A stretch of 64,000 nucleotides of DNA from Isoetes taiwanensis (lineage: Eukaryota; Streptophyta; Lycopodiopsida; Isoetales; Isoetaceae): positions 7,353,172 through 7,417,171 of the forward strand of contig JAJEKV010000059.1 of assembly GCA_021234155.1 (NCBI GenBank), read 5' to 3'. A program made the position numbers and the translations under genes. Under the pieces are notes generated by a model, which ran no database searches, had not been told where the DNA came from, and saw nothing but the letters and a program-made list of their open reading frames with translations. Shown here piece after piece: positions 7,986 to 24,589 of the stretch. Each line of letters starts with the position of its first letter. The first letter of the stretch is position 1.

Positions 7986-9376
7986 CCTTGGCATGTTGGA
8001 GCCTAGGTGGCATGTTGGAAACTGCGTGGCATTTCAGACCCCATGTGGCATGTTTGAAGCACCTTGGCATGTTGGAGCCAAGGTGGCATGTTGGAGCCCA
8101 CGTGGCATGTTTGAGCCACCTTGGCATGTTGGAGCCTAGGTGGCATGTTTGAGCCTAGATGATCAGGTAGCATGTTGGAGCCCACGTGGCATGTTTGAGC
8201 CACCTTGGCATGTTGGGCCCGGTTGGTATGTTGGAGCCCACGTGGCATGTTTGAGCCACCTTGGCATATTGGAGCCTAGATGGCATGTTAGAGCCCGCGT
8301 GCATTTTGGAGCCTACATGGCATGTTTAAGCCACCTTGGCATGTTTGAGCCTAGGTGGCATGTTGGAGCCCACGTGTCATGTTTGCGTCACCTTGGCTTA
8401 TTGGAGCCTAGGTGGCATGTTGTAGCCCACGTGACATATTTGAGCCACCTTGGCATGTTGGAGCCTAGGTGGCTTGTTGGAGCCTACTTGTCATGTTCGC
8501 GCCAACTCGGCATATTGGAGCCTAAGTGGCATGTTGGAGCCCACGTGTCATGTTTGCGCCACCTTATTGGAGCCTAGGTGGCATGTTGGAGCCCACGTGG
8601 CATGTTTGAGCTTAGGTGGCATATTTTAAGCCATCTTGGCATGTTGGAGCCCACGTGGCATATTTGAGCCACCTTGGCATGTTGGAGCCTGCATGTTGGA
8701 GCCTAGGTGGCATGTTGGAGACCGCGTGGCATTTTGAAGCCCACGTGGCATGTTTGAGCCACCTTGGCATGTTGGAACCCACGTGGCATGTTTGAGCCAC
8801 CTTGGCATGTTGGAGCCTAGGTGGCATGTTGGAGCCCGTGTGACATTTCGAAGCCTATGTTTGAGCCTAGATGACATGTTGGAGCCTAGGTGGCATGTTT
8901 GAGCCACCTTGGCATGTTGGAGCCTAGGGGGCATGTTGGAGCCCACGTGACATGTTTGAGCCACCTTGGTATGTTGGAGCCTAGGTGGCATGTTGGAGCC
9001 CCCGTGCATTTTGGAGCCTGGCATGTTTAAACCACCTTGGCATGTTTGAGTCTAGGTGGCATGTTGGAGCCCACGTGGCATGTTTGAATCACGCTGGCAT
9101 GTTGGAGCTTAAATGGCATGTTGGAGCCGCGTGGCATTTCGGAGCCTAGATGGCATGTTTGAGCCACCTTCGCATGTTGGAGCCGAGGTGGCACGTCGAA
9201 GTCCACGTGGCATGTTTGAGCCACCTTGGCATGTTGGAGCCTAGCTGGCATGTTGGAGCCTGCATGGCATGTTTGAGCCACCTTGGCATGTTTGAGACTA
9301 GGCTGCACGTTGGAGCCTAGATGGTATGTTAGAGCCCACGTGACCTGTTTGAGCCACCTTGGCATGTTGGAGCCTT
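7983..9376. repeat. 19-bp minisatellite with 57-bp higher-order unit
   Basis: About 70 head-to-tail copies of a 19-bp unit, GGCATGTTGGAGCCNNNNN, where the last five bases alternate among CTAGGT-, CACGT- and ACCTT-like versions. Three units make a 57-bp higher-order repeat, a multiple of three, so several frames stay open for hundreds of bases on both strands. The encoded 19-residue repeats are a by-product of the period and not evidence of a gene. The array starts exactly at the CCTCCCACCTTGGCA end of a satellite-family copy, which suggests local expansion from that sequence. Confidence 0.93.
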
Positions 9377-9822: not shown

Positions 9823-10458
9823 TGATTGTTTTCGACTAGCCAACTTAGGCCTTTTGGGATTTGATCTTTGACCCATACTTTAGTCTTGAATTGGTGATGT
9901 AATGGACTTGTGGAGCTTCTCTCCTCTTTCTTTTTCCTTTTTTAGAGAGAGAGTGCGCTTCTAATGACTTGTCAAGTGCATGGTAATGGATCATGATGTG
10001 TGTGTGTAATGTTCATGGTGCATATGTATGGAATATGTGGTGTGTGAGATTTTGCCCTAGGGAAAAAGACTTTGAGCCATGAAAATATGATGGATGAGAT
10101 GAGGGATGGGTATGAAGAATGAGTATGGATGTGAGCAATGCCTTCTTGAGCCAATATCTCTAAGATAGTGTGAAAATCTCAAAAGGTGGCAAGACAACAT
10201 ACTTCTTTGGGGGTCTTCCAATCTTTGACTAGGGATCTTCTCTTTTTGACTTCTTTTCCAATCTTTGACTCAAGTCTTGCTTCTTTTTGCTAACTTGAAC
10301 GCTCCTTTGAGTGTTCTCCATTGGTCTTCAACTTGATGTAAAGATTTGTCTTCATACCTAAACAATGAGCTCCAAATGGAAATGTCTTGCAAATGTGTTT
10401 TGATCTTTTTGTGTTTTCTTGTGAAGTTGCTCTTACATGCTGCCACAAGGTGGCAGCA
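9823..10458 (-). repeat. LTR-like direct repeat, 3' side of element 1
   Basis: It is nearly identical to 26174-26807. On the minus strand it begins TGCTGCCACC and ends AATCA, giving the TG...CA ends of an LTR. The terminal TGCTGCCACCTTGTGGCAGCA is an inverted repeat. The A-rich tandem array directly abuts its outer end, and no purine-rich tract is evident on the inner side, so the boundary is not textbook. Confidence 0.7.
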
Positions 10459-15029: not shown

Positions 15030-15734
15030 TTAGGGCCGGGCTCCCCTTGTGTGCACAGCCATGATCTCCTCTTCTCTTTGAAATTTTTCAACTTCATGGT
15101 GCAGTGAGTTGCTTTTCTTCCTGCAAGTACCTGATAGAGGCACTAGGCTCTGGTCTTGGGAAACACCTTTCATCCTGCAAAAACTTAACAGATGCACTTG
15201 GCTCACTAGCCTTAGCATTTTCTTGCCTAGCAAAATACTCTTTGACACTGCATTTATCTTCATAGTGTCCTATAGCTTTGCAGAAAGTACAAAGAGGGCA
15301 TTCCTTACCATAATGCCCTTTCTTACCACATTTTAGGCATGTCTTATACCAGCAATAATCTGAAGAATGGGTATTTCTGGTGCAGTGAGCACAGGCTGGG
15401 TAAACTCTCCTTTCTGGTTGGTTGGCCTTCATTTCCATGAGTTGTTTGGTGACCTCAGCCAACTCAGTGACTTTGTTGAGATCTGCTCTCATGTCTGACT
15501 CAGAACAGTTTGCATCATCAGTCTTAGTTTTTTTCTTCTCCTTTTGAATGGCATAAACAGGTACAGGGGCAAATCCCATGTACTCTTGATCATAATCAGG
15601 AAAAAAGGGTCATTTGAAGCTTGTAGGTCATCAGGGATGTAGGCTAACATTTCAGAGGCTTCAATGGATCTTGTAAAAGCTTTATGTATCGTGTCAAAAC
15701 CTTTTTGTCTCTGCAGCTTCAAACAAAGTTGCGT
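15030..15734 (-). pseudogene. Gag C-terminal half of element 1 with CCHC zinc knuckles
   Basis: Two overlapping minus-strand frames (15749-15489 and 15579-15094) encode the nucleocapsid end of Gag. CCHC knuckles are CLKCGKKGHYGKEC and CTFCKAIGHYEDKC, preceded by a less regular CAHCTRNTHSSDYC. These bind the element RNA during particle assembly. A frameshift lies near 15540. The upstream half of Gag is at 24158-24589, on the far side of the nested element that begins at 15735. Confidence 0.85.
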
Positions 15735-15800
15735 ATTAAACCGGAGCAAATCATTGAAACGAGAGCAAAAGGAATATTCCTCAAAGATTCCCTTTTTTTT
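15735..15800 (+). repeat. left terminal inverted repeat of the 8.4-kb element
   Basis: It starts ATTAAACCGGAG and includes AAAGATTCCCTTTT. The complementary right end lies at 24060-24110. Similarity is interrupted, as in an old or sub-structured TIR. Confidence 0.65.
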
Positions 15801-16965
15801 TTACAAAAGGGGGTAAAACGAGGTTAGAAAAAAAAAAGATGCATGAAATTCTATTTTGACCCCCAAATGACTAATTTTTTTTTGCAACGAAAAGAATTGA
15901 CTTTTTAAAGTGTCACTTTTCTTAGCAAATAGAATGTTCTTAAAGTATGTTTTAAGAGAGAAACTCTAATTTCAGGAGGATAAAATATTTAACAAAAAAT
16001 TGAAGTAAGTCTCAGAATCGAAATCGTAGTATTCTCAAAATTTGAAGATAGAATCTTCATATTCACATGCAAAATTGATCTTTTCTAAGACTTCGGTTAT
16101 GTGCAAAAGTGTGAGGAGTGATGAGAGAGGGATCGGGGCGTCTTCATATTCATTTATGCCATCGTCATCACCTTCACTTCTTTCATTTGTCATCCGAGGA
16201 AGTGCTTGAGTTATCTTCCTCATCACTATCAACGAGATGGTGAAGCATTGTCACCACCTTCTTCATCATCTTCTTCTTAATTACAAGCTTTTTTAAGCAA
16301 ATTGATAGTCTCAAGCGTAGAGCGATTGTCGATTTCAATTTAAAATCATAGCACAAAATAGTCACGTCGTTAAGGTTCAGTTTTCGTCCCTACAACCCAC
16401 CTTCTTGGACTTTCTCCTTTTCCTTGGCTTCTTATTTCTAACTCATATCTACCTTCAAAAGCATTTTTCGAAGCGTGTTGCAAGCCAATGAATCTTGAGT
16501 TTAGTGACTAAGCCTTCCTCCTTGACTGTGTCAAGCACTTTTGCTATCCGTAGCGATCGACCTTTGTCATCCTCCTCGGTCCGAAGAGCAATTAGCATAA
16601 CTTTGGTAATTTCGTGATATTACCTTGAGGCTCATTCTGCGTCTTGTGCGAGGTACATGACTTCGGTCCTCCTCGTCTTCTCTTTCAAGCAGGTGCAAAT
16701 GTAGCTTTGCTTGGACCTGCTTTGTCTTTGGGGTTGATGGAAGGTGTTAGGCCATTGAAATGGTTCTTGCAACTGTCTTAGAGCTATATTTTGTACAACA
16801 ATTTTCTGTTCGAGAAAGAAATTACTCCACCACATCCGATCTTCTTCTAAGAAGTACTTAAAGCCTGAGGAAATTCCATTTTCATGGCTTTTAAGGATGA
16901 CTCTGGGGTACTTTTCTTCTGCTTGGACTCCTTAGGATTTTTGAGAGGAAGTTGTTCAGCACGTT
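15801..16965 (-). other. decayed 3' part of the transposase region
   Basis: Short minus-strand frames are acid-rich (DSDEEDNSSTSSDDK; GDDDGINEYEDAP), with stops between them. They probably derive from the C-terminal part or 3' flank of the transposase gene read at 16966-18560. Nothing else is recognised. Confidence 0.35.
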
Positions 16966-18560
16966 CTATATGAAGGAAGTGTCTGGAATATATTTAAGGA
17001 AGCGTAATTCCTCTGGTGGACTCCAGTCCTTAGTTGTGGTATACATCTTCCCCTGTAAGAAGCTTTGGCCATCCTTCAAGTAGAACTTGATATGATGCTG
17101 AAAGGTGAGATCATTCAACTTGTTCACAGCTTGTTCTCTGTTTGAACATTGAGAGAAAACAAACTCTCTAAAATCAGCAGTCTCTTTAAGAAGATCGACC
17201 ACTGGAGTAGGAGTGTAAGAATCTTCAATAATTCGAACTAAAGAAGGAAGACAGAAAGCCTTGTTCCTTCTAAGGCTTACGAGAAAAATCTTTGAACATT
17301 TGGTCAATCCGATCATGAGTGTGGCCTACAAGTAAGAAACCGAGCTTCACTTTTCTAAAGATCCCTAGCTCCACTAACATGGCACAAGACATAAAGAGTG
17401 TTTGATTCTTGTTCTCCCTTGTAGTATTGTCAAGTTGCGAGATAAAGCACCGGTGGTAATTGCTCTTGCCTCATACTGGGACCTTGTTAAGAATTGTAAT
17501 TGTGAGGTTCGGGTCACCATGCAAGTTTGGATACGTCAAAAAATACTTTGCACTTTAGAGTTCCTTTGAAGACCATAGCTCCTACAAGGTGGATCTTAAC
17601 AAAACATTCCTACGGCACATCTTTAGGAATGTTCAAGAAATGTGGTAGAGGTGTTTTTTTTTTGGTCCATTCCATCAATCACAAATGCAGACATGTATTG
17701 CGATTGGACGTTCAAGAACTTTTTTCTATGCTTGGCAAGCTTTCTTCTCTCTGGCGCTTGTTGTTCACGATGTCGGCAAGGTTACATTTGCACAATATCA
17801 TGTAGAAGAAATCAGGTCAAAACATTTTCTCTCGAAACAAGTGAGAGATTGGAGAACATGAGCTTACTTTCTTTCGACCTCTGTCTTTGCGGTTTTTCGT
17901 TGACTCTTTAATTCTCGCACACCTCGAGCAAACGGTCATTCTATATTTTCTAGGAATTTTCACAAGACCAAATTCACTTTTCCACGGTCTGGTGAAGTGT
18001 GAGTAAGAGATGTCTTGAAGGAGTGCAAGTCTCTTTGTACTCATTAAAAATATCTTTTTGGTGATGTTATCGGTTAAATGATACATGTTCTTTGTTAGGT
18101 AGCTTCTCACATGTTTCTCTAAAATATTTCTCCATCCATGACACACAGTGAAGGGCATGCATAGTTACAACTCTTCTTGGTCCACAATGATCATCGATTC
18201 TTTGGATTTTTGTCCGGTCTTTTGTGTATTCTAGACATTCGGTGGACCCTAAGCGGTGGACAACCATAAAGCATTTTCGCAAACTTCTTGGCCGGTTAAT
18301 GTAGTGCAAGAAGGTGTTGCGGTCTGGTCTTACATGATAAGCTAAGTAGGCATTGCAGTGCGCCAATGTCATGGAACCGTAGTTGTCTCTCTAATCGCCG
18401 TAATTTAGCCATATTAAATCTGTTGATGCAACCCAATGAGCAGCATTTAGTTCTCAAAAGTCTCCTCATTTTGTGTTCATCCATAAGATTTCTTCTTCTT
18501 GAGAGGAGCACGCCCTCAAACCAAAATCCACCTTGAATTTCTTTGAAGATTGGCTTGAGA
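16966..18560 (-). pseudogene. DUF7869-type transposase-like protein, frameshifted
   Basis: Minus-strand frames joined across several breaks show a consistent protein. An early part has SWMEKYFRETCEKLP. Then comes SYSHFTRPWKSEFGLVKIP followed by a CSRCARIKES zinc-like pair. After decayed sequence come QLDNTTRENKN (17405-17437) and KLGFLLVGHTHDRIDQMF (VGHTHDRIDQMF at 17294-17329), then AFCLPSLVRIIEDSY. The DN...N and GHTHxxID motifs are the hallmark of the DUF7869 family, found in many eukaryotic repeat elements and thought to have an RNase H-like core; that link is family knowledge recalled, not searched. It is divergent to the methyltransferase gene and shares a promoter interval with it. An alternative reading is a captured host relative, but multiple family blocks inside one TIR element favour the element's own transposase. 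Confidence 0.65.
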
Positions 18561-19490
18561 ACATGTAATCTCTTTGTTCCTCGTTGGTGTCTTCATCTTC
18601 CTAAGTGGTGTGCTTGTAGATGAAACTTTTACTCTGGGGTGACTTCCTAAAGGATGGTCCTAAGTGGTGTTCTTGTGAAAAGAGGCAAAATCTCCTTTAG
18701 ACCGAATTCTGCAAATCCATGTGAAGTTGTTGTGTGAATAGGCATCTTTGGGCGTCGTCCTCATTTGTTAAAGGATGGTGATGGCCCATAAGAGGTTGTC
18801 ACATTTTGGCATAAGGGATGTTGTTCTTGTACCATCTTGAAAAGGAGTTCTTGCAAACATCTCCTTTAGAGTTGGTCTGAATTACAGTAGTATCAAATCC
18901 ATGTGTCACAACCGTTGTTGTGTGAAGAGGAGTGCATCTTTGGGCGTCGTCCTCATTTGTAGTGAAGTCATATTTTTGAAGGTGAGAGAAATTGAAATAG
19001 TCATAACCTCATCTTCTTTACATCTTTGTGTTCCTTGTATGTTTGGATGAAGGGGGCTTGTATGGAAATTTTGGATGAATAAGCAACAAAATGGGGGGGT
19101 AGCTTGTTCTTGAACACCCGTTGTTGTGGAGCTTCGTAGGTGGTCCGGGGATGGAACAAAGGGTGGTGGCAACATGCTCGGCCCGGTGGTGATTCTTTGG
19201 AAGGAGATGCCGGTGGCCGCTCTGAGGACTTGGTGGCCGGTTGGAAGGGTGGTGGAAGTCTGTTACGTCTTTGGACTCGGTGTGTCTTCGAAAGCAACAA
19301 CGATGAAGCAGAGGTAAGAGTCGGAGAATGCCGGTCTTCACTAGAAATGACGTTGTTCCCAAGCGTGTCCCGTGAACCGGCGAGCTTGAGACAACAAAAG
19401 ATGGTGGAAGCTTGTTCACGAAGCGGTTCGTCATCTTAACAACTGCAAAATAGTAAAGAGATTTGAGAAACTTTCTATAATGCAGAGCTT
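18561..19490 (-). other. upstream transposase region with internal direct repeat
   Basis: A roughly 115-bp block recurs near 18660-18775 and 18840-18965; both copies end GGGCGTCGTCCTCATTTGT. A minus-strand frame of 168 codons (19524-19018), proline- and histidine-rich, may be the N-terminal part of the transposase. It matches no family I know. Confidence 0.4.
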
Positions 19491-20140
19491 TTCTTATTCC
19501 CGAATACATGCCCACATAGTACAAGTAGAAGTTCCAGTACTAATCAAGTGAAAGTCAAAACAAAAGCTATTCTGGAATACACAAGAGTAGGATAGTAAAG
19601 CTAAACGTATTCCGCTTCACATAGAAAAAGAGAAAGACGAAAATGATACCTTTAAAAGGAAATTTCGGCGCCTTCGGTTATGTATTCGGTCACCGAGCTT
19701 TCGAGTCGCCAGCGCCAGCGCCTTCGATTATAATATTCAGAGACTGTATTCCGATTCACATAGAGAGAACATGGACAGGTCAGTAAGAAAGTACAACGTA
19801 CAATCATTTGCATGTCTGTTTCTTATTCCCGAATACACTTTGGCCTTTCACTCGAAGGCGAAAGTGTATTCCGGAATACACTTTCGCTTTCACTCGAAGG
19901 CGAAAGTGTATTCCGGAATACACTTTTGGACTCGAAGGCAAAAGTGTATTCCGGAATACACTTTCGTGTTTTTAGGTTTTAAGAGATTACTTTTCCATGT
20001 GTTTTTTAGTTATTTTAGGCGTTTTTCCTGCCTTTAAAGCTTGTTTAGACCTGTTTCTTTGTCAAGATTGCAGTGCTTTTTTGGCATTTTTGTCCTCTTT
20101 TTGCCCTCTTTTTTCCCTTTTTGCAAGACATTTTGTATTC
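19490..20140. promoter_or_regulatory. divergent promoter interval with palindrome cluster
   Basis: This lies between the minus-strand transposase relic and the plus-strand methyltransferase gene. It contains three perfect copies of GTGTATTCCGGAATACAC (19864-19881, 19906-19923, 19944-19961). The first extends to a perfect 30-bp palindrome (19858-19887). Degenerate copies occur near 19495, 19570, 19606, 19748, 19823 and 20132. Spacers between the perfect copies are themselves inverted repeats (CTTTCG...CGAAAG). The position suggests operator-like sites for a protein acting on both genes; this is inference. Confidence 0.7.
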
Positions 20141-21918
20141 TAGAATAGTTTTTGGCCACTGTTTTCTCTAACAAGGTCGTGTTTACAAACAATTTGCACA
20201 GACAAGACAACAGCAAGAAACAACAGAAGAGGCCCCTTAAAATCCCACACAAACCGCACCCACAGAGAAGGCTTGAGGAGTCAGCTGCGCCTACTATCTA
20301 CAAAAACTTCCAAACTCAATGATTCTTTACAAGGGGTACTTCTGGAAAGTACAGCACCCTTACTTTCCTACACGTCTGTCGGAGCCTTGGAACCAAAAGG
20401 TACGATGACAGGGAATTTGTTTGCATGGGCACCATCCAGGCCGTGAGTGAAGTAGCTGGGGAGTCCGGTCAGGCAGGGAGACTGTCTTTTCAGACATCCC
20501 AAGGCTTTATTCATGTTGATGAATCCTACCTTAGAGTGGTGAAAGTAAATCCACATCCTCTTTACAAGTATGTTTCTCACTACCTGAACAAGAAGTCGCT
20601 CTGTTCCATCATTAACTACGTTCGAAGCACAACGAGCGAGGACTTCCCCTACAGCGAGTCAAAACAAGAGGAAGATATCCCAGAGAGCCCGAGCAGTGCA
20701 TCACCATCTGGGAGTCCATCAGAGTCCGAAGAAAGGCCACCGTCACCACCACCAAAGCGGCAAAGGCAAACCGTTGCCGCTAAAGAGCCTAAAAAAAAGC
20801 AAACGGCTTTGATTGCAACAGAAGATGCTCCTGAGGCACAAAAGAAGAAGAAGGGGAAAGGCAAAGCACCTGGTGTTGCTATCAAAGAAAAAAAAGTTGA
20901 TAAAACATCTGAAAAAATGGAGGAGATAAACCTGCACAAGTTTGTGCAAGGTGTCATTTATTTGCCAGTCACTTGTATGAAGCTTCCACCGAAAAATGAA
21001 GCTGGTGAAAGGCCACTTCAGGTTCACAAAATTTACACCGATCACTTGAGGAACTTGAAAGACAGAATAAGGAGCAATCCAAATGCTCATGTGGCCCCAA
21101 TAGTTGTCCTTGTTGATAGGGAGCAGTGCAAAACCCCCAGGACTATGACAGAGAAAACGCAGAGACCTACACTCACTACGTCTTGGGAGGCAATCACAGC
21201 TTCAAGGCAAGAAGGCAACTTTATAAAGAGAAGAAGAACCCGAGGTACCTCTCTCCGTCCCTCATTTGTCTCTTGTGGTCTTACCGATGAAGAAGCTTAA
21301 AAATCGTTGCCAACACCCACAATCGCGACAACGAATATAAACTAAAGATGAGCTTAAAATCGACAAGATCCGGTTCATGCATTGTGGAGTGCGTAATTTT
21401 CAAGGAAAAGTACGGTGAGGACCTGAAGAAGCCAACGTTTTCCTTGGAGCTTAAGGAGGCGTGTGCCATTGAATGCTGCCTGAAATATGACGAGGCCAAT
21501 AAAAGGCGATCTCGTATTGGCCCACGATAACCGGTTTCAATTAGCTTTTAGAGATGGCAAGGTAAGCACAAAACGTATTCGAGAATAACAAATCAACTAT
21601 CTCACGCGGAAATCTTTTTGAACAGATTTGGGAACTTGAGCGAGATATTTTCAATGTTCGAGCGAGGGGAGTTAAAGAGCAAGGGCAAGGAGACAGCCAA
21701 AAAAAAAAATCATCCGACGTGCCCAAAAAGAAATGACCATTACCGTCTGGCGAGAAATGCAGGGCTTCTCCGACACAGAGATTCTCGAGAGGCTTCTCCA
21801 AAAAGTTGTTGATAAGGAGTTTAGCCTAGAAGAAATGTCAAAGGAATTGCACAAGTAAGATCTCTGCCACAAACTTTACTCTTTAGACGTTAGAGTCCCA
21901 AAAACATCGGGGTAGATA

Positions 21919-22230
21919 GTGTATTCCAGAATACACATACCTTTCTTCACATGGGCACTGTGTATTCCGGAATACACAATGCTTTTCTAGAGACAAGCAA
22001 TGTGTATTCCGGAATACACATTGCCCATGTAAAGGAAGGCATGTGTATTCTGGAATACACATGTCCTCTTCTAAAAAAGTATTGTGTATTCCAGAATACA
22101 CATTGCTTCTCTTGTGTATTCCAGAATTACACATTGCTTCCTTCAGAGAAGCAATGTGTATTCCGGAATACACAATGCATTTTGTTTCGAGGTAGCATCA
22201 CCAAGTTAACGGTTTGTATTCGTAATACAT
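21919..22230. repeat. intronic array of 18-bp palindromes, about 41-bp period
   Basis: Seven copies of GTGTATTCCGGAATACAC or one-base variants start at 21919, 21960, 22002, 22043, 22084, 22114 and 22156. A degenerate eighth lies near 22213. Steps are 41, 42, 41, 41, 30 and 42 bp. Spacers are short, unlike each other except that several begin or end with GCAAT/ATTGC. All lie in intron 2 of the methyltransferase gene. Confidence 0.92.
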
Positions 22231-22969
22231 TTAGCTTGACTTTTATTTGTTTTTCTTCTACTTTGCCTTGTTTCTTACTTTTTAACTCATTGTTTCCTTA
22301 ACGTCTTGCAGCCAAAAGAATGTCATAACATGTCAATTTAACATGTTTGATGGAGCAGCTAAACGTAGAGACATGGAAAAGGTGCAAGGAACTCTACCCA
22401 ATAGCCACTTCTGACGAGCGCATTGTGCAATATGCACCAAATTTTGAGGGCTGGGTAAGTACTCTCAACATTCCTCGTCTTTGCACACACGATCTCCTTA
22501 CAGTTGTTGTTATGTTTTTCCTCAGAGCAAAAAGAAAAACAAAGACCTTCCCGAGGGATTTATGCATTTGGTTAGAACAGCACGGGAAGAGAGGTCGTTA
22601 GCTGAAAGAAGAACTGTTGAGCCAGAACCATCCGACTACGAGAGATTTTGCATGTTTGATCAAAACAATTTATATTCAATCATTCACGGTGATTGCACGA
22701 ACCTTGTCGGAACGGTTAAGCCACAGGACTTCACTTTGGTTATTGCTGATCTTCCCTACGGGTTTAAGCTTAAAGACAGCAGATACGACGACCAGCCCTT
22801 CAAATTTTCAGAGTTTAATGCTTTTATTGATGGAATCAAGCAGATCACAACGGCTAAACATTGGCGTTTAGTTACTTTCCATTCGAGCATGCGATACCGG
22901 CTTGGTAGAATCAGCTTTCAAAAACCACTTTGGTTCTCCAGTTCAGGCAGGATATGAAAACCTTGTCTG

Positions 22970-23100
22970 GTAAGTCTTATTCCAGAATACAGTTACTTTT
23001 CTCTTTGATTACGTAGTGTATTCCGGAATAGTATTTTCCTGTTTCTGGTTTTCGAAGTGTTTTCTTGTTTTTGCTAACATCACTTTAAATGTTTCACTAG
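22970..23100 (+). other. intron 4 of the methyltransferase gene with two more palindromes
   Basis: The intron runs from GTAAGTC to CACTAG. It holds TTATTCCAGAATAC near 22977-22990 and GTGTATTCCGGAATA at 23016-23030. Intron 1 (21562-21625) also holds GTATTCGAGAATAC-like sequence at 21575-21589, whereas intron 3 (22455-22525) has none. Confidence 0.8.
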
Positions 23101-24059
23101 GTACAAAACGAACATCAACTACCATGGTGGAGGTCCAAGGTTGCTTAGCAAGGTAGAGTACCTTCATGTAGCTTATTGGAGTTTTGATGGGAAGAGGACC
23201 ATGGAACACTTCAACACTGCCGCCTGTCAAAACTTTTCAAACGTCCTTGAGTTTCCAAAGCAGTCTTACGTAAATTGCGGGGACCCAACCGCACAAAGGC
23301 GGGGATTGTGAATCACTACCGAAACCACAAAAACTCATCAACCATCTCCGGACATGTTCTCGTCCATGAGATTGGGTGCTTGATGCTTTCTCCGTTTACG
23401 GTACTACTATCGCATGTGCACTTAAGAAGGGCGCGAACTGTGTAGCCGTGGATATTGATAAGGATCTTTGTTAATTTTGTGAAGATGAGACCGGGTGCCT
23501 TACCTACTTTACCAGATGAACATCAAGAGCTAGGGGCCAAGTCTTCATCTGATTATGCTAAACTAACGTCCTCAGAGATACAGCCTCCATTCTCCAAACT
23601 CACTAGGCGATGAGGCAACCTTTGCAGAGCTTAAAGAAGTAGCTTTAGCTACCATTCCAGAGGACAAGGAGGATACAAAACTTAAGTCTCCAGCAAAGGA
23701 GCAGACGGCACAGAAGGACGAGGCGGCAGAGAGCAGCAAAAAAAATGATGAGGACTATGATGTAGATCTTTGACTACTGCATATTAAAATTAGCATTATT
23801 TATTACAATGAATCTTCCATATTGATGTACGAAAATTTATTAAAAATATATTACTTTTTTCCTCTCTATTCTGGTGCTTGTTTTTTTTCATGCTTTCAGT
23901 CTCTTCAAGTCTCTGCCTAAATTTCGCTATTTGTATGATTTCTGTTTCATAAGTACAAAGTTATCGCCTAATAATGGCCCAAAATTACACGAAAAAAAAT
24001 GCGAACCTCTAGAAATTCTCAACAACTTTCAAAAAAGGCTTATTTTAGAAACATGGTGT

Positions 24060-24110
24060 TTTTTAAAAGGGAATCTTTGAAACGGGAGTGATGCAACACT
24101 CCCGTTTAAT
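24060..24110 (-). repeat. right terminal inverted repeat of the 8.4-kb element, with hairpin
   Basis: Read inward on the minus strand it starts ATTAAACGGGAG and reaches AAAGATTCCCTTTT, matching the left end. The outer part also forms an 11-bp stem, AAACGGGAGTG with CACTCCCGTTT, around a 6-base loop. Confidence 0.65.
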
Positions 24111-24589
24111 TTGCAATCGTGTTTTCAGCATTTTTCTGTAGACTCGAGGTCTGCTGCTTAATCCCCTGATAAAAGAGGCAACCAAATGTAAAGTGTGGTA
24201 GGTACCTTGTAGACTTGGCACTTGGTAAGATAGCAATTAAACCTCTCAACATATTGGTGAGTTGTTTCACCATTTTTGATGTGAAAGTTCTGCAGCTCAA
24301 AGACCAAATCTTGTGGTTCAAGAAGCTTATCAAACCTGGCTAATTTTTTTTTGACAATCTCCTCCCAAGTGTTAGCACCATCACTAATCACATACTCCAA
24401 CCAAGCTCTAACCTCCCTGAACAAGAAAAAACTGTTTGCCAAAAACTGTTTGCCAAATGAAGTTGGATGATTGGTTTTTATTGGGAACAACTGCAATTGA
24501 TGCTCAAGGGAATCCAGAAAATGCTTGCAAAAGTCAGAGGCAAATGGTTGACCAGAGCTAGGTGAAGAATGGCTTCCTGACCGAGTCAA
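24111..24589 (-). pseudogene. Gag N-terminal half of element 1
   Basis: A 143-codon minus-strand frame reads like the conserved retrotransposon Gag segment: WLEYVISDGANTWEEIVKKK, then FDKLLEPQDLVFELQNF and ETTHQYVERFNCYLTKC. Gag forms the particle shell. The sequence stops at the right end of the nested 8.4-kb element; the zinc-knuckle half resumes at 15734. One frameshift near 24175 separates the frame from the last codons before the junction. Confidence 0.8.

Follow-up and report, generated by a model that had tools for sequence, protein, structure and literature searches.

A 64,000-nucleotide stretch of the Isoetes taiwanensis genome (assembly GCA_021234155.1, contig JAJEKV010000059.1, positions 7,353,172 to 7,417,171), here called the window, was analysed and confirmed to contain a high-copy DNA transposon that is bounded by terminal inverted repeats (TIRs) and carries a divergent gene pair. 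One gene codes for a DUF7869 protein that is presumed to be the transposase, and the other for a predicted DNA methyltransferase that is fused to a ParB-like part. Since the methyltransferase is fused to the ParB-like part and palindromes are arrayed in non-coding parts of the element, the transposon may chemically modify itself and thereby evade silencing, and we lean towards reading the DUF7869 transposase and the ParB-methyltransferase together as a self-marking anti-silencing system that would act via these palindromes.

The copy in the window is decayed and 8,402 bp long, spanning 15722-24123. The initial annotation had recognised the element but placed its limits at 15735-24110, 13 bp too short on each side. 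The ends are as follows:

15718..15721, no strand: left copy of the target-site duplication, TTCA
15722..15746, plus strand: left TIR AACAAAGTTGCGTATTAAACCGGAG, 19/25 match with the right end
24099..24123, minus strand: right TIR AACACGATTGCAAATTAAACGGGAG, in minus-strand reading
24124..24127, no strand: right copy of the target-site duplication, TTCA

The TIRs of 25 bp are imperfect, AACAAAGTTGCGTATTAAACCGGAG and the reverse-complemented right end AACACGATTGCAAATTAAACGGGAG being alike at 19 of 25 positions, and with TTCA on either side they bear out the inverted ends that had been claimed. By eye, a 4-bp target duplication was found in all 11 elements of family A, the family of the window's copy, in which both ends were readable (15 examined, the window's included); the Sola superfamily is defined by 4-bp duplications together with a Sola transposase, and the element is a candidate member at most. 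The insertion lies in the gag region of a long terminal repeat (LTR) retroelement, as had been proposed: a Retrotrans_gag match (5e-6) was found to the right of the element, a zinc-knuckle frame was seen by eye to the left, and the flanks rejoined at a single TTCA gave a frame of 113 amino acids that stays open over the junction, the gag being broken at other places. At locus L017, about 28 bp were directly repeated on either flank outside the 4-bp duplication (by eye), and a further left end was present at 9855. At L019, positions 8196-8993 hold an open frame resembling a pentatricopeptide-repeat protein (by eye), partly outside the element's left end.

A search of the genome (1,658,258,908 bases in 1110 contigs) for a 19-mer of the right end gave 659 exact occurrences, compared with none for the reversed control. 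For the methyltransferase region, 40 of 1338 first-look candidates were scored; one of these is the window's own copy, and the remaining 39 were 91-96% identical, in four cases along part of the query. The methyltransferase is thus a high-copy repeat, also by its PF01555 matches (150 scored of 1444 candidates), and a stable single-copy host gene was ruled out. Nor did copies of the ends without these genes appear: of ten copies fetched via the methyltransferase match, six contained nearly the whole element and five both ends.

The gene pair itself recurs. Among the best 150 of 1444 candidates for PF01555 and the best 150 of 9910 for DUF7869, at least 24 of the 150 listed PF01555 matches lay within 15 kb of a DUF7869 match, where 0.4 pairs were expected; because only the best candidates entered the lists, this count is a lower bound. 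In 23 of the 24 pairs the two matches were on opposite strands, and in 17 they were 4.9-6.2 kb apart. All six query parts were found in eight elements (L019-L026), which had been chosen because both matches were present. Five divergent DUF7869 loci, hand-picked among the 22 top-ranking DUF7869 rows and all outside the 24 pairs, had transposase cores about 60-69% identical to that of the window family, and in four of the five the fused gene was on the opposite strand; they belong to about two families and are therefore not five independent cases. With hundreds of ends and a gene pair that recurs in divergent relatives, the view that both genes are part of one mobile element was upheld.

On the minus strand, the window contains:

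16090..19434, minus strand: presumed transposase gene, decayed here; limits approximate, taken from longer frames in L013, L019 and L024
16966..17470, minus strand: DUF7869 core (Pfam PF25273) that contains VGHTHDRIDQ and is interrupted by a frameshift; E-values of the two pieces 6e-23 and 1.9e-5, the latter just under the cut-off

The DUF7869-type block that had been noted on this strand was thus recovered by profile (6e-23), and the profile search proposed for translated copies matched both the N6/N4 methylase (PF01555) and DUF7869 (PF25273). DUF7869 membership was established with 81.9 bits against a curated cut-off of 26, and PF25273 matched all 11 members of transposase alignment A2. The name transposase reflects the gene found beside it and the inverted ends of the element, and this role is presumed. 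The protein may well have a DDE triad, which is unproven: the structure model was weak, with a mean predicted local distance difference test score (pLDDT) of 40.4, and the invariant LQLDN and VGHTHDQID are triad candidates only. The transposase profile had no match among solved structures, and Foldseek followed by structural re-alignment mainly returned a region at the C-terminus that resembles BAH or chromo-barrel domains (best Z 6.7, below the trust level). In the low-confidence model of the L019 protein, BAH or chromo-barrel-like rows dominated the re-alignment of the C-terminus (residues 395-502). Going by these models, the transposase may read chromatin. The transposase gene region also holds a 27-bp perfect direct repeat (window 18742-18768 and 18934-18960).

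The plus strand, opposite DUF7869, reads as one spliced gene that leads from the ParB part to the methyltransferase part via a putative GT-AG intron:

20425..21854, plus strand: ParB-like portion of the fused gene, start codon uncertain; frameshift near 21150 in the window copy
21562-21625, plus strand: putative intron inside the ParB-like part, with one palindrome
21855..22311, plus strand: putative intron GTAAGA...TTGCAG with six palindromes (21922-22170) spaced 41, 42, 41, 41 and 72 bp
22312..22454, plus strand: linker exon; 4-bp insertion in the window copy only, compared with 10 other copies
22526..22969, plus strand: methyltransferase exon with motif IV ADLPYG
22970..23100, plus strand: putative intron with two palindromes (22978, 23019)
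23101..23773, plus strand: methyltransferase exon with the S-adenosylmethionine (SAM)-binding motif VLDAFSVYGTT (VLDAFSGSGTT in open-frame copies)

The sequence does contain all three motifs by which a divergent spliced gene had been recognised (GGNHSFKARR, ADLPYG and the SAM motif), and the GT-AG introns are predicted from it. The window copy of the gene is broken by frameshifts, the 4-bp insertion and the damaged SAM motif VLDAFSVYGTT. The linker exon was open in the five copies parsed for splicing (L009, L010, L013, L014 and L016), and L014 has a single open frame of 416 residues when its exons are joined from the linker through to the stop; the continuity of frame from the ParB exon into the linker was derived by hand from the copy alignment.

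By profile and motif order, the methyltransferase belongs to the beta class of DNA methyltransferases, its catalysis being predicted at most. PF01555 (N6_N4_Mtase) matched with 2.9e-17 in L013 (63.8 bits, curated cut-off 26.7) and 3.8e-17 in L014, a CcrM structure matched by sequence with 1.6e-11 and phrog_67 with 2.7e-23. AD[LI]PYG lies upstream of DAFSGSGTT, the beta-class order of motif IV before motif I, and in the five sequences aligned DAFSGSGTT as well as D, P and Y of motif IV were invariant. Because of the motif IV aspartate and the adenine-specific relatives, the target base is more likely N6-adenine than N4-cytosine. The NCBIfam CcrM model reached 51.2 bits, far under its cut-off of 830, and we therefore claim no CcrM orthology. 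Phage methyltransferases were 22.7-25.3% identical over 55-63% of the query (20 listed of 764 records), and pattern scans of genome contigs and viral contigs for a prokaryotic or viral donor confirmed no relative.

For the ParB part, the fold is the stronger line. Its model had pLDDT values of 58-84 per ten-residue block (residues 191-330). The top Foldseek matches were sulfiredoxin (E 6e-3); after structural re-alignment the 13 best rows were ParB, Noc, PadC or KorB (Z 9.1-11.7, root-mean-square deviation 2.0-3.6, 94-103 residues), with sulfiredoxin next. At the level of the model, a ParB/sulfiredoxin-like N-domain fold is thus confirmed in the fused gene. Taken alone, the sequence evidence for a ParB identity is weak: phrog_1033 matched four of 12 ParB members (best 5.3e-6), TIGR03764 gave 0.0012 and 18.6 bits, far under its cut-off of 143.75, and the Pfam search of 12 ParB-part members returned no ParB match, DUF6551 appearing below cut-off in 11 of the 12. 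The ParB profile run against the structures' sequences gave unrelated best matches (E 0.22 or worse), and no phage match was obtained for the ParB part. The ParB-like identity initially proposed is hence supported by fold (Z up to 11.7) and by phrog_1033, and not by Pfam.

The initial annotation had not mentioned the palindromes. Each family has its own 14-bp palindrome with the common frame GTAT...ATAC and a centre that differs by family: GTATTCCGGAATAC in the window family, GTATGAATTCATAC and GTATAAATTTATAC in L034 and L035, and GTATAAATTTATAC in L036-L038. In the 64-kb window, TATTCNNGAATA occurs at 16 sites, all 16 inside the element, nine in the putative introns and seven in the spacer:

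19495..20147, no strand: spacer array between the divergent genes, seven sites TATTCNNGAATA at 19495, 19568, 19824, 19867, 19909, 19947 and 20136

Across 20 elements, none of 268 mapped sites lay in coding matches, though these make up 77,395 of 141,841 bp ("coding" meaning a tblastn match, so that unmatched coding sequence counts as non-coding). The spacer between the transposase and ParB matches held 136 sites; of the others, 98 were in the interval from ParB to methyltransferase exon 2, 28 in that from exon 2 to exon 3, and 6 outside the outermost matches. Hence 262 of the 268 fall either in the spacer or in those gaps of the fused gene that bear introns. In the whole genome, exact matches to the 18-mers GTGTATTCCGGAATACAC and CGGTATAAATTTATACCG numbered 2585 and 4415, and their reversed controls had none. 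In 15 loci, 2-25 palindromes per locus were counted against shuffled means of 0.45-1.0, which rules out chance overall, save for L020 (3 sites) and L024 (2 sites), which are within the shuffled maximum of 3. An own palindrome type considered for L020 was dropped; this locus has the family-A type with few sites.

Spacings, taken up to 130 bp in the mapping of the 20 elements, tended to fall near multiples of about 10.4 bp (20-21, 30-32, 41-43, 51, 62, 72-73 and 83-84), with a period of 10.25-10.5 bp and R 0.68 in five elements, or R 0.54 on 24 distinct spacings; related copies and tandem duplication of the arrays inflate this phase signal, so that p-values of the site and spacing tests are not to be taken as probabilities. 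At the centre CpG of GTGTATTCCGGAATACAC, 1698 CG-to-TG/CA variants and, as control transitions, 213 other C-to-T and 11 T-to-C variants were counted against 2585 intact sites; many CpG variants are shared by descent and not independent mutations, which weakens the count. The decay is as expected if the arrays carry host CpG methylation in silenced copies.

Both genes are under strong purifying selection in the window family, with ratios of nonsynonymous to synonymous substitution rates (dN/dS) of about 0.02-0.11. The ratio was 0.02-0.03 for methyltransferase exon 3 where dS was computable, 0.06 for one pair in exon 2 (upper bounds 0.04-0.11), at most 0.05 for the ParB domain save 0.07 in one close pair, and 0.06-0.07 for the transposase core. 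Synonymous sites were near saturation in these comparisons, and values are given for pairs with a proportion of synonymous differences (pS) above 0.25, upper bounds assuming a dS of 2; the unfiltered sets used 8/10, 12/12, 7/8 and 8/11 sequences, the remainder not fitting the cutting patterns. When only residues with local identity of at least 0.6 were kept, medians at dS 0.7-2, which leave out saturated pairs, were 0.05 for the methyltransferase, 0.06 for ParB and 0.07 for the transposase. From these similar values, the methyltransferase is maintained about as strictly as the transposase. Between families synonymous sites were saturated, and dN/dS could be given as bounds only, of up to 0.30. 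Across families, methyltransferase and transposase distances were congruent (r 0.88).

How such a system might work can be outlined. The ParB part, a putative binder, would recognise the palindromes of its family, and the phased spacing would allow ParB-methyltransferase molecules to line up on one side of the helix and bind cooperatively. Bases in or near the arrays would then be modified by the methyltransferase, N6-adenine being likelier than N4-cytosine, and the mark or the bound protein would shield the element's promoters and introns from host cytosine methylation, or regulate them. Binding, catalysis and mark are what we infer here; the position of the arrays outside coding matches speaks in favour of a self-directed action. 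The initial annotation's idea that the methyltransferase marks or protects the element, or regulates its promoters, is thereby supported in part.

Several observations weigh against this reading. The canonical catalytic motif IV is [DNS]PP[YFW]; the aligned sequences have D[LI]PYG instead of DPPY, so that catalysis is not assured. Similarly, the classical nucleotide box of ParB is GERR, and the alignment has, by eye, GGNHS or GGTHS at the matching place, so that a CTP (cytidine triphosphate) clamp is not supported. Some spacings are off phase (27-29, 34, 38, 59, 100 and 112 bp), and the CpG decay in many copies means that protection, if any, fails in old copies. L036 has palindromes, yet its 8.5 kb cut gave no match to the ParB-methyltransferase. 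Finally, within family A (L009-L026 and the window) the distances of methyltransferase and transposase were not significantly congruent (r 0.24, 93 of 999 permutations being as high), possibly because of module exchange between subfamilies or frameshift noise.

Instead of being targets of the ParB-methyltransferase, the palindromes could be operators for the transposase or a host transcription factor, with the ParB-methyltransferase acting elsewhere, for example at the transposon ends. Family-specific sites would co-vary with the transposase of a family too, and 136 of the 268 sites are in the spacer, where the divergent promoters must lie; however, 126 more are in intron-bearing gaps of the ParB-methyltransferase gene, and no palindrome of the window is near the 25-bp ends. 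The unit of the heat-shock element is TTCnnGAA, and the differing centres of the families together with the lack of TTCnnGAA in B-type sites speak against one host factor. We consider this explanation unlikely.

The lost-catalysis alternative, in which the methyltransferase fold is merely part of a DNA-binding regulator, would account for D[LI]PYG in place of DPPY in the families read. Against it stand the invariance of DAFSGSGTT and of the motif IV residues D, P and Y in the five aligned sequences and a dN/dS near 0.02 in the exon with the SAM motif, and we regard it as improbable, the least probable of the three alternatives. Between these two in probability, and still unlikely, is a role in the timing of transposition, with methylation of the element gating the transposase or protecting cut DNA. 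Dam methylation gates or protects in this way for some bacterial transposons, and the methyltransferase and the transposase are under similar constraint, but the arrays are in the middle of the element and not at the ends, where gating of the transposase would occur. Such roles of transposon methyltransferases are discussed in the part of PMC3627910 consulted.

A self-marking system acting via palindromes has its closest likeness in the VANDAL transposons of Arabidopsis, whose VANC protein targets arrayed motifs in non-coding regions including introns (PMC5735166). As described in the excerpts of PMC5735166 and PMC10398659, VANDAL elements resemble the Isoetes element in being DNA transposons that encode an additional protein and bear short motifs, specific to each family, in arrays within introns and other non-coding parts, but VANC lowers cytosine methylation and is not described there as a DNA methyltransferase, and its motif has 9 bases and is arrayed in one orientation, whereas that of Isoetes is a palindrome. 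The Isoetes element further differs by its base-modifying enzyme with a ParB domain and by its 4-bp duplications, and the likeness is one of layout only.

That mobile elements carry DNA-modification genes, as the initial annotation had stated, has precedents. KDZ and other fungal transposons combine TET/JBP dioxygenases with a transposase (PMC12730594); in contrast to the Isoetes enzyme, these act as dioxygenases on methylated bases and in fungal hosts, and the term ParB is absent from the main text of that paper. Mariner elements of giant viruses carry a transposase and a DNA methyltransferase, but also an endonuclease, TA duplications and Methyltransf_26 and cytosine-C5 domains, and neither a ParB domain nor palindrome arrays are described in the sections of PMC3627910 consulted. 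The idea of a transposon-borne methyltransferase is not new, and that transposons can direct epigenetic control at themselves is, in principle, known. Bacterial and phage beta-class methyltransferases share the domain by profile (phrog_67), and CcrM also by sequence, whereas the Isoetes gene has introns, the ParB fusion and a location in a transposon. The parS sites of ParB are palindromic, and the palindromes near the Isoetes gene recall them, as its N-terminal domain fold recalls ParB, Noc and KorB (Z 9.1-11.7); unlike these, the Isoetes protein has GGNHS or GGTHS rather than GERR and is fused to a methyltransferase, and no role in partition is implied. Searches of the open-licence literature returned no paper that deals with DUF7869 or with this gene pair and its palindromes, in agreement with the earlier remark that no described element was known to combine the two proteins; as far as this literature goes, the trio of ParB-methyltransferase, DUF7869 protein and family palindromes is undescribed.

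A more specific version of the self-marking system is tentative, and we give it somewhat less than an even chance: a superfamily of eukaryotic DNA transposons would have domesticated a ParB-methyltransferase, which would load on family-specific, helix-phased palindromes and write a mark of bacterial type, N6-methyladenine (6mA) or N4-methylcytosine (4mC), on its own element, protein and palindrome having co-evolved into separate specificities and so into a private epigenetic code for each family in a vascular plant. The role of 6mA or 4mC in plants is contested, and here a high-copy plant transposon has retained a DNA methyltransferase of bacterial type under strong purifying selection, along with arrays resembling targets of that enzyme. 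Enzyme and sites are thus both specified, and what long-read methylation data should show can be clearly predicted. The ParB-methyltransferase system would work like VANC, but via a base-modifying enzyme. If true, this would be an independent case of the VANC principle with other proteins, in which a transposon acts solely on its own kind via diverging arrayed motifs.

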